Source: Niabella drilacis (GTDB taxonomy: Bacteria; Bacteroidota; Bacteroidia; Chitinophagales; Chitinophagaceae). From it: a stretch of 64,000 bases of DNA. A program made the translations under genes and the position numbers. Positions 13,656 to 26,707 of the stretch are shown here, one piece after another. Under the pieces are notes generated by a model. It saw only the letters and a program-made list of their open reading frames with translations. It was not told the DNA's origin and ran no database searches. The stretch lies in NCBI RefSeq assembly GCF_900101395.1, contig NZ_FMZO01000004.1, positions 363,009 to 427,008 of the forward strand, written 5' to 3'. The first letter of the stretch is position 1. Every line of letters begins with the position of its first letter.

Positions 13656-13685
13656 GATCTGTTTTATTTATGTATTAAATTATTT

Positions 13686-13704
13686 GTCTACAAAATAAGT
13701 AGAC
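13686..13704. promoter_or_regulatory. Perfect sulfur-regulon palindrome in the TonB receptor leader
   Basis: GTCTAC - AAAATAA - GTAGAC, both half-sites perfect with a 7-bp spacer, 30 bp upstream of the receptor start codon and within the inferred 5' leader. The same palindrome recurs at 13854, 15304, 15472, 22655 and 26448. It could be an operator or, in RNA, a 6-bp hairpin. Confidence 0.65.
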
Positions 13705-13734
13705 TAAAAGAGTAAAAAAATAGGAAAGGCGATT

Positions 13735-13815
13735 TTAACAACATCGGGCTATGGTATATCGCATCCCGGGAGCGCTGCGGATTACCTGTTGTTTATGGGA
13801 TCTTGCTGTACACAT
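13735..13815 (-). CDS. Putative cysteine leader peptide upstream of the TonB receptor
   Basis: A 26-codon frame starts 18 bp downstream of the -7 box of the inferred promoter, so roughly 12 nt into the transcript. It encodes Cys at codon 2 and ends Ala-Arg-Cys-Cys followed directly by TAA. Three Cys in 26 residues, two of them terminal, in the leader of a sulfur-regulated gene fits a cysteine-sensing leader peptide. A run of seven U (13714-13720 on the minus strand) begins about 14 nt after the stop. I do not see a strong terminator hairpin before it, so classical attenuation is not proven. The coding status is inferred from position and composition. Confidence 0.5.
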   Translation of the reverse strand: MCTARSHKQQVIRSAPGMRYTIARCC

Positions 13816-13832: not shown

Positions 13833-13872
13833 CAAAAATAGGGGAATTTATTAGTCTATAAAAAAAGTAGAG
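13833..13872 (-). promoter_or_regulatory. Promoter plus operator of the TonB receptor (P1)
   Basis: On the minus strand an imperfect palindrome (CTCTAC-N7-ATAGAC, 13854-13872) is followed after exactly 13 bp by the -7 box TATTTTTG (13833-13840). The segment from the right half-site to the -7 box is almost identical to that of P2 at 15451-15490. The half-sites occupy the -33 region, where a regulator would compete with or assist RNA polymerase. Confidence 0.65.
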
Positions 13873-13910
13873 TTTTATTTTAAAAAGAGAAGGACGAAGG
13901 GACGGGAGGC

Positions 13911-15296
13911 TTACCTGAAGATACCGGCCAGTATTTTAATGCTCCAGGTAACCACCAGTATCCCCAGCAGTATGAAGGCCGTTTTCCGGGGAAGTTTTCC
14001 GGCCAGCTTTGCGGCAACCGGGGCGGCGATCAATCCGCCGATGATTAATCCTAATATGGTTTGCCAATGGCTTACACCCAGAAAGATAAAGAACGTAAAG
14101 GCACTGGAAAGGGTTACGAAAAATTCGGTAAGGCTTACTGAGCCGATCACATACCGGGGGCTGCGGCCTTTTGTAATTAAGGTGGTGGTAACGATGGGGC
14201 CCCATCCACCGCCGCCGAAAGAATCAAAGAACCCTCCGGCCCCGGCCAGTAGTTTGTAATGTTTGTATTTTTTCTTCCGGACCTGGTTGCGGAATGCATT
14301 GACCAGGATCTTTATTCCGAGAAAGAGGGTATAACAGGCCAGCAAGGGGCGTATCCACGAACCGTATTTTTCGCCGAGGTAAACCAGCAGTACTGCCCCC
14401 AGTATAGCGCCGGCAACGCCGGGGATCAGCAGGGTTCTGAAAAGTTTTTTATTGACATTGCCGAACCGGTAATGGCTGTAGCCGGACGCGCCACTGGCAA
14501 ACATTTCGGCGGTATGGATACTGCCGCTGATAGCAGCAGGATTCACCCCGGCAGATAGCAGAATCGTGGCGCTGGTGACGCCATACCCCATACCCAGTGC
14601 CCCGTCTACAAGCTGTGCTGCAAAACCGGCCAGGAGCATAATAAGGAATGATCGGTCGAAACCCTGGTAGAGTTGCTCTGTTCCTTCCCTGATGGCATCA
14701 TACGGAAGGTAAGAGAACAGGAAATGCCCGGTCAGCATTACGCCAAATAAAAGTAATGCGCGGGCGGCGATCTTCTTATAGGCGATCTCTTTTCCCTTCC
14801 CTTTTTCAGCCGGTCCGGTAACTGGGGGATACAGGAATGGCTGCCGGGAGGTCATAAGTATGCCCGGGAGCATACTGACATTTTGTTCGTTTGCAAGAAG
14901 ACCTGTATAGAGCGATTGAAGTTCCGGTTTGGTGGTGATGAAAGCCCGTTTCCCGAGCCGGTGCAGATCGGCGGTGATCCGGCCGGCGGTATCCGGATCG
15001 TCTGCAGCCGCTATGATAGTACCGGCATGCTCAACATCGTCAGGTGTATACGCGCGTTCCTGCAAATGCAGCTCAACATCTGCCGCAAGCGCCTTTATGG
15101 CGGGAAATATTTTTGGGCTTATGAGGGTAATGGAAGATCGGAACCCTGCCTGCAGCAGGGATTGCAGCTGCTCCAGGGCTGTATGCCCGCCGCCAATGAT
15201 CAGCAGGGGCAGTGACCCCGGCAGGGCGGCAACCGGGGCTGTACGGCTGCGTGCAGTTGGGGGATTTTCGGGAATAAGTATTTCTTGCTCGGCCAT
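13911..15296 (-). CDS. TSUP (TauE/SafE) transporter fused to a degenerate siroheme-synthase-like N-domain
   Basis: 461 residues. Residues about 28-145 form a Rossmann-like domain with the dinucleotide motif Leu-Ile-Ile-Gly-Gly-Gly-His-Thr-Ala-Leu-Glu, resembling precorrin-2 dehydrogenase. The catalytic central part with Ser-Thr-Asn-Gly-Lys-Ser-Pro, present in the neighbour at 15760, is missing. Residues about 180-460 form a TauE/SafE permease with about eight membrane segments, the two family repeats Gly-Ala-Leu-Gly-Met-Gly-Tyr-Gly and Asp-Ser-Phe-Gly-Gly-Gly-Gly-Trp-Gly-Pro, and a Ser-Ile-His-Thr-Ala-Glu element. TSUP proteins move sulfite, sulfate, thiosulfate or sulfonates across the inner membrane. 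The N-domain may only bind a nucleotide. The gene has its own promoter, leader frame and palindrome. Confidence 0.8.
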   Translation of the reverse strand: MAEQEILIPENPPTARSRTAPVAALPGSLPLLIIGGGHTALEQLQSLLQAGFRSSITLISPKIFPAIKALAADVELHLQERAYTPDDVEHAGTIIAAADDPDTAGRITADLHRLGKRAFITTKPELQSLYTGLLANEQNVSMLPGILMTSRQPFLYPPVTGPAEKGKGKEIAYKKIAARALLLFGVMLTGHFLFSYLPYDAIREGTEQLYQGFDRSFLIMLLAGFAAQLVDGALGMGYGVTSATILLSAGVNPAAISGSIHTAEMFASGASGYSHYRFGNVNKKLFRTLLIPGVAGAILGAVLLVYLGEKYGSWIRPLLACYTLFLGIKILVNAFRNQVRKKKYKHYKLLAGAGGFFDSFGGGGWGPIVTTTLITKGRSPRYVIGSVSLTEFFVTLSSAFTFFIFLGVSHWQTILGLIIGGLIAAPVAAKLAGKLPRKTAFILLGILVVTWSIKILAGIFR

Positions 15297-15322: not shown

Positions 15323-15342
15323 TATTTGATTAAAAAAAGAGA

Positions 15343-15438
15343 TTATTGCATACCGGTTCCTGCATTGCGGACCACGTATGTACAACAGCAGACCGGCTTT
15401 TCGCCGGGCATTTGGGCGCCTGTTATCCTACTCTTCAT
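15343..15438 (-). CDS. Putative cysteine leader peptide upstream of the TSUP gene
   Basis: A 31-codon frame with three consecutive Cys codons (codons 17-19, TGC TGT TGT) begins about 7 nt into the transcript predicted from P2. An ATG at 15444 would add two codons but would sit at the transcription start. A U7 run (15332-15338, minus strand) lies just after the stop. Within the frame an internal CCGGC-gaaaa-GCCGG hairpin could compete with a longer pairing (CCGGT with ACCGG) that spans the Cys codons. The arrangement resembles cysteine-codon leader peptides described in other phyla. Translation and regulatory role are inferences. Confidence 0.55.
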   Translation of the reverse strand: MKSRITGAQMPGEKPVCCCTYVVRNAGTGMQ

Positions 15439-15450
15439 TTGCATAGAACG

Positions 15451-15490
15451 CAAAAATAGGGGATTTTATTAGTCTATCAAAATTGTAGGG
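15451..15490 (-). promoter_or_regulatory. Promoter plus operator of the TSUP gene (P2)
   Basis: On the minus strand CCCTAC-AATTTTG-ATAGAC (15472-15490) is followed after 13 bp by TATTTTTG (15451-15458). A TTG inside the palindrome lies 19 bp upstream of the -7 box, a standard spacing, so the operator overlaps the -33 element. The sequence is nearly identical to P1 over about 30 bp. Confidence 0.7.
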
Positions 15491-15701
15491 TTATTTATTC
15501 TCAGGAAGGATTGAAACTTATAGAGGCGTACAGGAAAGATTGATATTGCCACCCTGTGCGTGGTCTTACTTTGAATACCGCCAGGGGTGCGGTAAAAATA
15601 TTATCGACTTTGGCAATATCGCCAATTTCCCTTGGGTGCGCTGTGTATAGACCTGGCAAAACCTCTTTCTTTCATAAGAAAGGTGATGAAACCAAAGATT
15701 T

Positions 15702-22639: not shown

Positions 22640-22654
22640 CTGTTGTTTTTTATA

Positions 22655-22673
22655 ATCTACTTAAAATGTAGAC
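22655..22673. promoter_or_regulatory. Sulfur-regulon palindrome upstream of cobA
   Basis: ATCTAC - TTAAAAT - GTAGAC (11 of 12 half-site positions), 15 bp upstream of the cobA start and just after the cysN terminator. No TAnnTTTG box is visible between it and the start codon, so the promoter of this unit is not located. Confidence 0.6.
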
Positions 22674-22682
22674 TTCGTAGTT

Positions 22683-22723
22683 AAAAAATAACGGCGCACC
22701 GGGATTGCCGGCCGGGCGCCGTT
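22683..22723 (-). terminator. Intrinsic terminator of the prx-cysH-cysD-cysN unit
   Basis: On the minus strand AACGGCGC (22716-22723) pairs perfectly with GCGCCGTT (22690-22697), with further CCGG/CCGG pairing inside, followed by A and six T. It begins 5 bp after the cysN stop and separates cysN from cobA. Confidence 0.85.
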
Positions 22724-25769: not shown

Positions 25770-26405
25770 TTAAATATTCGGTTGAGGTGTATAACGCAGG
25801 TAAGGTTTTACCTCTTTTACGCCTTTAGGGAATTTTTTAATGGCATCTTCTGTGCTGATAGAAGGTACTACAATTACATCTTCACCTGCTTTCCAGTCTG
25901 CAGGAGTTGCAACGCTGTGGTTGGCTGTCAGTTGTAATGAATCGATCACCCGTAATACTTCCTGGAAATTTCTTCCGGTAGAAGCCGGATAGGTAATGAT
26001 CAGCTTTATTTTTTTATCGGGCCCGATGATGAACAGGGAACGCACGGTTGCCTTTTCAGAAGCATTGGGGTGGATCATATCATAAAGGGTGGCGATATTT
26101 TTATCAGGATCTGCCAGGATCGGGAAATCAACGGAGCAATTTTGTGTTTCATTGATATCGTTCTTCCATCCCAGGTGCGAATCCAGCGGATCAACACTCA
26201 CTGCCAGGGCCTTTACACCGCGTTTTTCAAATTCGCCTTTTAATAAAGCCGTTTTTCCCAGCTCGGTTGTGCAAACAGGAGTATAATCAGCCGGGTGCGA
26301 AAACAGCACGCCCCAGGAGTCGCCCAGGTATTCATGAAATTTGATTTCTCCTTCAGTAGATTGCGCCGTGAAATCCGGAGCAATGTCGCCTAATCTTAAT
26401 GACAT
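25770..26405 (-). CDS. 1-Cys peroxiredoxin (Prx6 type)
   Basis: 211 residues. The peroxidatic motif is Pro-Val-Cys45-Thr-Thr-Glu-Leu-Gly preceded by His-Pro-Ala-Asp-Tyr-Thr. The long C-terminal domain (about 165-211) and the lack of a conserved resolving Cys fit the Prx6/1-Cys group. It reduces peroxides in the cytoplasm. It is the first gene of the unit that continues into cysH, cysD and cysN. Its promoter carries the sulfur-regulon palindrome, so it appears to be induced together with sulfate reduction. Confidence 0.88.
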   Translation of the reverse strand: MSLRLGDIAPDFTAQSTEGEIKFHEYLGDSWGVLFSHPADYTPVCTTELGKTALLKGEFEKRGVKALAVSVDPLDSHLGWKNDINETQNCSVDFPILADPDKNIATLYDMIHPNASEKATVRSLFIIGPDKKIKLIITYPASTGRNFQEVLRVIDSLQLTANHSVATPADWKAGEDVIVVPSISTEDAIKKFPKGVKEVKPYLRYTPQPNI

Positions 26406-26427: not shown

Positions 26428-26466
26428 CAAAATAGCTCTTTTAATAAACCTACTAATCAAGTAGAC
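26428..26466 (-). promoter_or_regulatory. Promoter plus operator of the prx-cysHDN unit (P3)
   Basis: On the minus strand GTCTAC-TTGATTA-GTAGGT (26448-26466) is followed after exactly 13 bp by TATTTTG (26428-26434), one base short of TAnnTTTG. The same operator-to-box spacing is seen at P1 and P2. The -7 box lies 22 bp before the start codon, so there is no room for a leader peptide here. Confidence 0.6.
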
Positions 26467-26707
26467 TAATAGGGTGGTTTGCAAGGTACGATAAAATATT
26501 TGAATGGAAGTGTAAAAAAATGGTGAAAATGGAAAAATAATCAAAAGTGAATAGGCAATGGACGGGCCGCAGCGCCAGGAATAGACCAGCAGAACAGTGC
26601 TAACCACACATAAGTGGGTCTTGGGGCCCCATATCCGTCAGACCCGCTTTACGCCTGCTGCCAGGCTTTCCTTTTCAAATTTCCTTATTCCCCCGTTATT
26701 GTGATGG
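26467..26707. other. Intergenic region between kinase and peroxiredoxin genes
   Basis: About 240 bp. A stem of AGTGGGTCT with AGACCCGCT (about 26610-26652) lies past the end of the histidine kinase gene and may help end its transcript, but lacks a U-run. Nothing else was recognised. Confidence 0.35.

Follow-up and report, generated by a model that had tools for sequence, protein, structure and literature searches.

A cysteine-codon leader frame between two operator-like palindromes in Niabella drilacis, a candidate part of a sulfur-starvation attenuator

The 33-codon frame that ends at position 15343 may well be a leader of a cysteine/sulfur-starvation regulon, in which a frame with Cys codons would feed an attenuator composed of a repressor roadblock and a U-tract, most likely under the control of a CymR-like protein of the Rrf2 family; judging from the sequence, we put the probability of this reading at about one half. 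It draws on the frame itself, its promoter, two copies of a palindrome (boxes A and B), the fixed distance between box B and a T-tract and the strand asymmetry of this pair, as well as on the statistical association of Cys leaders with box B and of the boxes with an Rrf2 gene. The layout with two putative operators and a U-tract at one fixed distance is a stronger result than the leader peptide itself. Neither box B nor a possible role of the T-tract was part of the initial annotation of this DNA. All features located in the window, the 64,000-nucleotide stretch that was analysed, and some of those seen elsewhere in the family are listed in Table 1.

The initial annotation described a frame of 31 to 33 codons with three consecutive Cys codons directly after a promoter, and such a frame is indeed present on the minus strand. 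Its ATG lies 6 nt behind the end of a TTTG-19-TATTTTTG promoter, which we take to be of the Bacteroidetes type. The frame is enclosed by two copies of a single 23-bp palindrome, TAGTCTAC N7 GTAGACTA, the first of which overlies the -33 element of the promoter, while the second directly precedes the start codon of the next gene. The 7-bp spacer is rigid: among the sequences gathered at that stage, it was found in 165 places, a spacer of 6 in one, and spacers of 3 to 5, 8, or 9 in none. An RNA hairpin was set aside as an explanation of the box, because the same palindrome also covers promoter -33 elements. Past the leader stop there is a run of seven T, which begins 4 nt beyond the stop codon and has its last T 11 nt beyond it. 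The frame had been said to end 11 bp before "U7"; this label was left undefined. The next gene starts at 15296.

This next gene belongs to a sulfate-assimilation cluster, in which Pfam searches identified a peroxiredoxin, two PAPS-reductase-family proteins, two NAD_binding_7-TauE/SafE fusions, a sulfite/nitrite reductase, a flavodoxin-type reductase, a tetrapyrrole methylase, an EF-Tu-like GTPase, and a hexapeptide transferase. The last five are read as cysI, cysJ, uroporphyrin methyltransferase, cysN, and cysE, respectively. The neighbouring leader at 13735, previously offered as a companion case, is supported as such: it has the same two boxes, and its orthologues carry C-terminal Cys codons. 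A terminator-like composite of hairpin, T6, and box is also found inside the operon, between cysN and the tetrapyrrole methylase gene. An Rfam scan of the whole window at gathering scores returned zero matches.

Table 1. Features of the leader region, of the rest of the window, and of other loci of the family
Feature	Position	Strand	Basis
Leader frame MQMKSRITGAQMPGEKPVCCCTYVVRNAGTGMQ, ATG 15444 to TAA 15343, 33 codons	15343..15444	-	ORF listing and sequence
Cys triplet TGC TGT TGT	15382..15390	-	Sequence
Promoter, TTTG (15481-15478), 19 nt, TATTTTTG (15458-15451)	15451..15481	-	Sequence
Box A, over promoter -33 element	15470..15492	-	Sequence
T7 tract (U-tract in RNA), 9 nt ahead of box B GTCTA core	15332..15338	-	Sequence
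Box B, second palindrome copy, just before start codon	15302..15324	-	Sequence
CCGGC/GCCGG arms	15407-15403 / 15397-15393	-	Sequence
CCGGT/ACCGG arms	15396-15392 / 15357-15353	-	Sequence
Downstream gene, NAD_binding_7 (siroheme-synthase-like) and TauE/SafE (TSUP) fusion	13911..15296	-	Pfam
Box A, neighbouring TonB-receptor leader	13852..13874	-	Sequence
Neighbouring leader MCTARSHKQQVIRSAPGMRYTIARCC; Cys codons at the C-terminus in its orthologues	13735..13815	-	ORF listing and orthologue comparison
T7 tract, neighbouring leader, 9 nt ahead of its box B core	13714..13720	-	Sequence
Box B, neighbouring leader	13684..13706	-	Sequence
T-tract and box composite between cysN and tetrapyrrole methylase gene, T6 at 22688-22683, 3' of GGCGC/GCGCC hairpin	22653..22697	-	Sequence
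Box upstream of peroxiredoxin gene (25770-26405), head of sulfate-assimilation cluster	26446..26468	-	Sequence and Pfam
Candidate regulator, CymR/IscR-like Rrf2 protein, 135 aa	42351..42758	-	Structure matches, genome comparison
tRNA-Cys genes	L233 1604-1675; L242 1590-1661; L247 164-236; L262 275-346; L223 1205-1276		
SAM riboswitch RF00162	L110 1560-1676; L250 416-519; L258 210-316; L218 1365-1472		

Cys leader frames behind this type of promoter are supported as a real class. A model of the box and promoter only, built from 29 aligned sites found by DNA patterns, was searched against 17 Niabella genomes and then against 244 genomes of the family Chitinophagaceae. The 49 Niabella sites considered here are those matches with the better E-values that extended as far as the promoter end of the model, to the exclusion of weaker ones and of those to the box alone, whereas the 66 sites from the rest of the family are the non-Niabella matches whose locus was at hand or fetched, the remainder standing outside the count. 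A short frame with at least two adjacent Cys follows the promoter at 31 of the 49 and 29 of the 66 sites (60/115 together), with at least three at 24/49 and 20/66 (44/115), and with at least four at 11/49 and 9/66; the numbers are not independent, with related genomes among those counted. The permitted distance from the promoter to the frame start was up to 40 nt in one count and up to 60 nt in another. Dinucleotide shuffling gave means of 2.04 per 49 and 2.82 per 66 sites for two or more Cys and of 0.09 and 0.10 for three or more, and the antisense control had two or more Cys at 4 sites in either set and three or more at none. About 0.002 CCC frames are therefore expected per site by chance, and 44 were observed at 115. 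The 29 training sites had been picked for their palindrome from pattern hits after their downstream sequence had been seen, and the other sites were therefore also counted separately: two or more Cys are found at 15/24 Niabella and 26/62 other sites, and three or more at 14/24 and 17/62. Some leaderless palindromic sites (e.g., L057, L071, L072, and L080) and one leader site (L065) had been left out of the training set. In 295 genomes of the taxonomic class, searched with strict filters (E up to 1e-6), matches were seen in three, one of them outside the family (G348), at whose two sites frames with at least two Cys are absent.

Runs of three or more identical residues in these frames consist of Cys at 44 sites, of Leu at 18, and of any other residue at no more than 2. 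Apart from their Cys codons, the leader peptides have little in common, on which ground an arrest sequence at the peptide level was dropped. The third base of the Cys codons varies (183 TGT and 79 TGC), and these features together point to the codons being read rather than to an arrest signal in the peptide. Cys is the C-terminal residue in 31 of the 60 leaders, and the last Cys is within 2 codons of the stop in 42, unlike the 15343 leader, where it is 12 codons ahead of the stop. The genes behind the sites, mostly named from their translations, with Pfam used for the window cluster and five others, include those for TonB receptors (e.g., behind MKPNFLPKTFCINSHCSLHCCCCCCC), a cysteine-synthase-like enzyme of the PALP family (behind MNILLAFTPLYCCCCC and a small protein), and a PhyH dioxygenase. 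In groups by downstream gene, drawn after the leaders had been seen, a Cys run is present at every site read in three groups, namely one of TonB receptors (14 sites), that of PhyH (7), and that of cysteine synthase (3). It is often absent from other TonB-like genes, which are among the 18/49 and 37/66 sites that show no Cys run.

The leaders and box B are statistically linked, with box B behind 22/60 Cys leaders versus 2/55 sites without one (P = 7e-6; the stretches in which it was sought differed somewhat between the two kinds of site). Twenty-two leaders combine box B with a tract of at least six T, and in every one of them the last T is separated from the GTCTA core by exactly 9 nt; boxes were admitted here at 10 to about 24 nt from the start of the tract. 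The first T lies 15, 16, or 17 nt ahead of the core, and the tract spans approximately nt 16 to 10 before it. One leader (L047) has box B but no run of six T. Wider counts carried no such bound and took in gaps within 60 or 120 nt. Among 75 boxes that precede genes, the gap on the sense side was 9 in 31 cases, 11 in 8, and 12 in 1, and on the mirror side it was 9 in 2 and 11 in 1; the gap is 9 in each of the 21 composites of this set that have a Cys frame. For 84 promoter boxes, the sense-side gap was 9 in 7, 11 in 2, 8 in 2, and 10 in 1. Orientation of the upstream neighbour, usable for 68 of the 75 boxes, also matters: the tract is more common with a codirectional neighbour (26/41) than with a divergent one (3/22; P = 1.7e-4), and it is present in 5/5 boxes for which no neighbour was found. 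The same split for promoter boxes gives 7/44 and 2/24. A signal that runs on one strand along transcription favours RNA or an elongating polymerase over a symmetric DNA contact. The T-tract could also act through the shape of the DNA or by binding protein; its one-sidedness speaks against a symmetric contact.

In 20 of the 22 Cys leaders the T-tract begins 0 to 26 nt past the stop codon, which would place a ribosome near the leader end a short distance behind a polymerase that is on the tract. Among 70 composites in total, 28 have a Cys leader, and in 12 the 30 nt before the tract fold at -7 kcal/mol or better; none of these 12 has a Cys leader, and the cysN composite of the window is one of them. 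Where a strong hairpin precedes the tract of a gene-preceding box, the gap is 11 in 6 of 8 cases, it is 9 where there is no such hairpin, and a gap of 10 is absent from the 75 boxes. Box B is missing behind 38 of the 60 Cys leaders, so the composite cannot be the sole read-out.

CymR is the cysteine repressor of Firmicutes. A CymR-like Rrf2 protein is the most likely regulator here, and the candidate encoded in the window may bind both boxes A and B. It matches the IscR/CymR structures PDB 4cic, 4hf0, 2y75, and 3t8r, with 4cic and 2y75 matched over most of its length, and has a close orthologue in 16 of the 17 Niabella genomes. The exception (G007), where the best Rrf2 match is 37% identical, is also the only Niabella genome without a box-promoter match; in three others (G002, G003, and G013), boxes are present and the Rrf2 frame is interrupted in the assembly. 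Across the family, the Rrf2 gene was found in 72/74 genomes with boxes versus 92/170 without a detected box, and in at least four genomes (G014, G104, G243, and G254) it adjoins a box. Within about 1.5 kb on each side of the four Rrf2 loci of the window's own genome, no good box was seen, the best scores being 11 and 12 of 16.

These elements suggest the following course of events. With sulfur plentiful, the regulator on box A, over the -33 element, would block the promoter. Transcripts that do start would run through the short frame of Cys codons, which is presumably translated and ends just ahead of the U-tract, and the same regulator bound to box B, acting as a roadblock, would stop RNA polymerase on or near this tract, where the enzyme would backtrack and be released. 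If Cys-tRNA ran short, a ribosome waiting at the Cys codons would sit close behind the polymerase and protect it from backtracking or from Rho, so that transcription would enter the gene; the effect of the ribosome is thus predicted to be a rescue of the polymerase. According to an excerpt of PMC10310618, a trailing ribosome in bacteria is held to raise the resistance of the polymerase to termination at obstacles.

More tentatively, and at less than even odds, the arrangement could be a bacterial version of the Pol I roadblock terminator that is subject to regulation: a repressor that responds to sulfur status, bound within a transcribed leader, would park the polymerase on a U-tract whose end is exactly 9 nt from the repressor site, release would require no hairpin, and the trailing ribosome on the poly-Cys frame would decide on rescue, so that one point would integrate the state of the repressor and the charging of Cys-tRNA. 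In yeast, as described in PMC12366685, Reb1/Nsi1 halts Pol I 15 bp upstream of its site, inside a T-rich sequence, a hairpin is needed for release of the RNA, and LexA or the Lac repressor is a poor roadblock in that system. The likeness to the Reb1/Nsi1/TTF1 system lies in a T-rich stretch about 15 bp upstream, along transcription, of a protein site, here putatively box B. That system is eukaryotic and has a hairpin, whereas the present one is bacterial and presumably regulated by sulfur, with a tract that covers roughly nt 16 to 10 ahead of the core; a polymerase that stops at 15 would thus be just at the start of the tract. No excess of structure in the manner of the Reb1-type hairpin was found upstream of the T-tract in 22 Cys leaders. 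If the roadblock/U-tract reading is true, the leader would offer a compact, testable case of hairpin-free termination in bacteria, decided jointly by a repressor on the DNA, a weak RNA-DNA hybrid, and a ribosome that trails the polymerase. For sulfur control in Chitinophagaceae, the analysis further puts forward a candidate regulator together with a candidate regulon, the latter comprising TonB receptors, TSUP exporters, a cysteine-synthase-like enzyme, and tRNA-Cys.

Among the other explanations, we find it doubtful that the leaders act through Rho-dependent attenuation of the tnaC or mycobacterial-cys type, with a ribosome stalled at the C-terminal Cys hiding a C-rich, G-poor Rho site and box B serving as an auxiliary operator. 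Between the Cys run and the gene, leaders in which this distance is 70 to 150 nt have a C/G ratio of 1.89, with C exceeding G in 32 of 35, compared with 1.09 and 13 of 23 upstream of 23 hand-picked genes of the window; however, the ratio is just 1.29 over the longer region in all 60 leaders, and the 15343 leader itself has 15 C and 12 G. The lack of an excess of intrinsic terminators and the 38 leaders without box B agree with such a mechanism, and the excerpt of PMC1262725 proposes the same explanation for actinobacterial Cys leaders, but it would leave unexplained both the exact gap between T-tract and box B and the strand asymmetry.

It is unlikely, in our estimate, that the three Cys codons at this particular locus are a coincidence or a relic, with the regulon and the boxes real and the boxes alone governing the gene. 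Six sites ahead of TSUP genes were compared (G000, G005, G006, G010, G011, and G012), and a short frame with adjacent Cys is present at one, G000, which is the 15343 leader. None of the four nearest TSUP orthologues (G005, G006, G010, and G011) has such a frame, and G011 retains T8 and box B without it. The idea of a Cys leader peptide is supported for the class, at 60 of 115 sites, but not by conservation of this CCC. Against a relic stand the low chance of CCC per site given above and the fact that G000 combines the Cys run, T7, and box B, while G005, G006, and G010 lack the T6 tract and a good box B along with the Cys run. The orthologues share only 71 to 75% protein identity with the window gene, at which level a recent gain here and a loss elsewhere are indistinguishable.

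Translational attenuation, with a stalled ribosome unpairing the start of the downstream gene, appears improbable: the distance from Cys run to gene start is 74 to 110 nt in 30 of 58 leaders, which speaks for it, but the predicted accessibility of the start goes from 0.573 to 0.593 with a stalled ribosome (n = 35), rising by more than 0.05 in 4 leaders and falling in 1. Sequestration of the start was rejected in view of this nearly absent change. Still more improbable is the classical attenuator of the initial annotation, with alternative hairpins around the Cys codons and a terminator/antiterminator switch, since the CCGGC/GCCGG and CCGGT/ACCGG pairings, which do exist, overlap as described, and are mutually exclusive, and the minimum-energy fold, which contains the former hairpin plus another located between the Cys codons and T7, do not rise above chance (z = -0.77; 44 of 200 shuffles fold equally well or better), terminators after the 60 leaders occur at chance frequency (13 versus 10.2 expected at -5 kcal/mol; 3 versus 1.4 at -9 kcal/mol), and structure from the Cys run to the T-tract is not in excess (mean z of -0.2 in 22 leaders). 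Intrinsic terminators behind Cys leaders were rejected as a candidate on the same counts, and the alternative leader structures found no support.

Canestrari et al. (2020) reportedly described polycysteine leaderless short ORFs in the leaders of mycobacterial cysteine genes. These resemble the present frames in being short, with a Cys run, and in the leaders of cysteine genes; they differ in belonging to another phylum, and here there are in addition two operator-like palindromes and a T-tract. The leader peptides of actinobacterial cys and cbs genes similarly have Cys codons near the stop and lack a conserved terminator hairpin, and the excerpt of PMC1262725 mentions neither an operator nor a T-tract, both of which are present here. 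The uORFC-8-2 motif before cysS in Rhodobacterales, as presented in PMC8632094, shares two tandem Cys codons in an upstream ORF and a cysteine-related gene, but consists of a two-stem RNA with an intrinsic terminator, which was not seen here. Within Bacteroidota, leader-peptide attenuation has been noted for Flavobacterium psychrophilum, with short frames before amino-acid operons (excerpt of PMC9723704), and small ORFs are found in long 5' UTRs of Bacteroides thetaiotaomicron (excerpt of PMC7366714). These short leader frames come from the same phylum, but the two excerpts describe no cysteine case (PMC9723704 and PMC7366714). A non-exhaustive search of the open-access literature brought up no Cys leader from Bacteroidota and no bacterial roadblock with a U-tract.

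Several further arrangements were seen behind the same box-promoter. A small conserved protein (MPLFSANIVLHYA...) is encoded ahead of the cysteine-synthase-like gene at two loci (L035 and L039), and the small protein alone was seen at L055. A second kind of TonB-like leader (L109, L116, L120, and L127) has VCCCSC as its last residues, and a conserved stretch around ATGGACGACTC lies behind it. At four loci, a SAM riboswitch (RF00162) takes the place of the poly-Cys leader. Finally, 5 of the 11 family loci that were scanned have a tRNA-Cys gene about 20 to 225 nt past the box-promoter, and at one of these (L262) a Cys frame, MKSNSITIYHVRSGRCCCTSNI, is found between the promoter and the tRNA gene.
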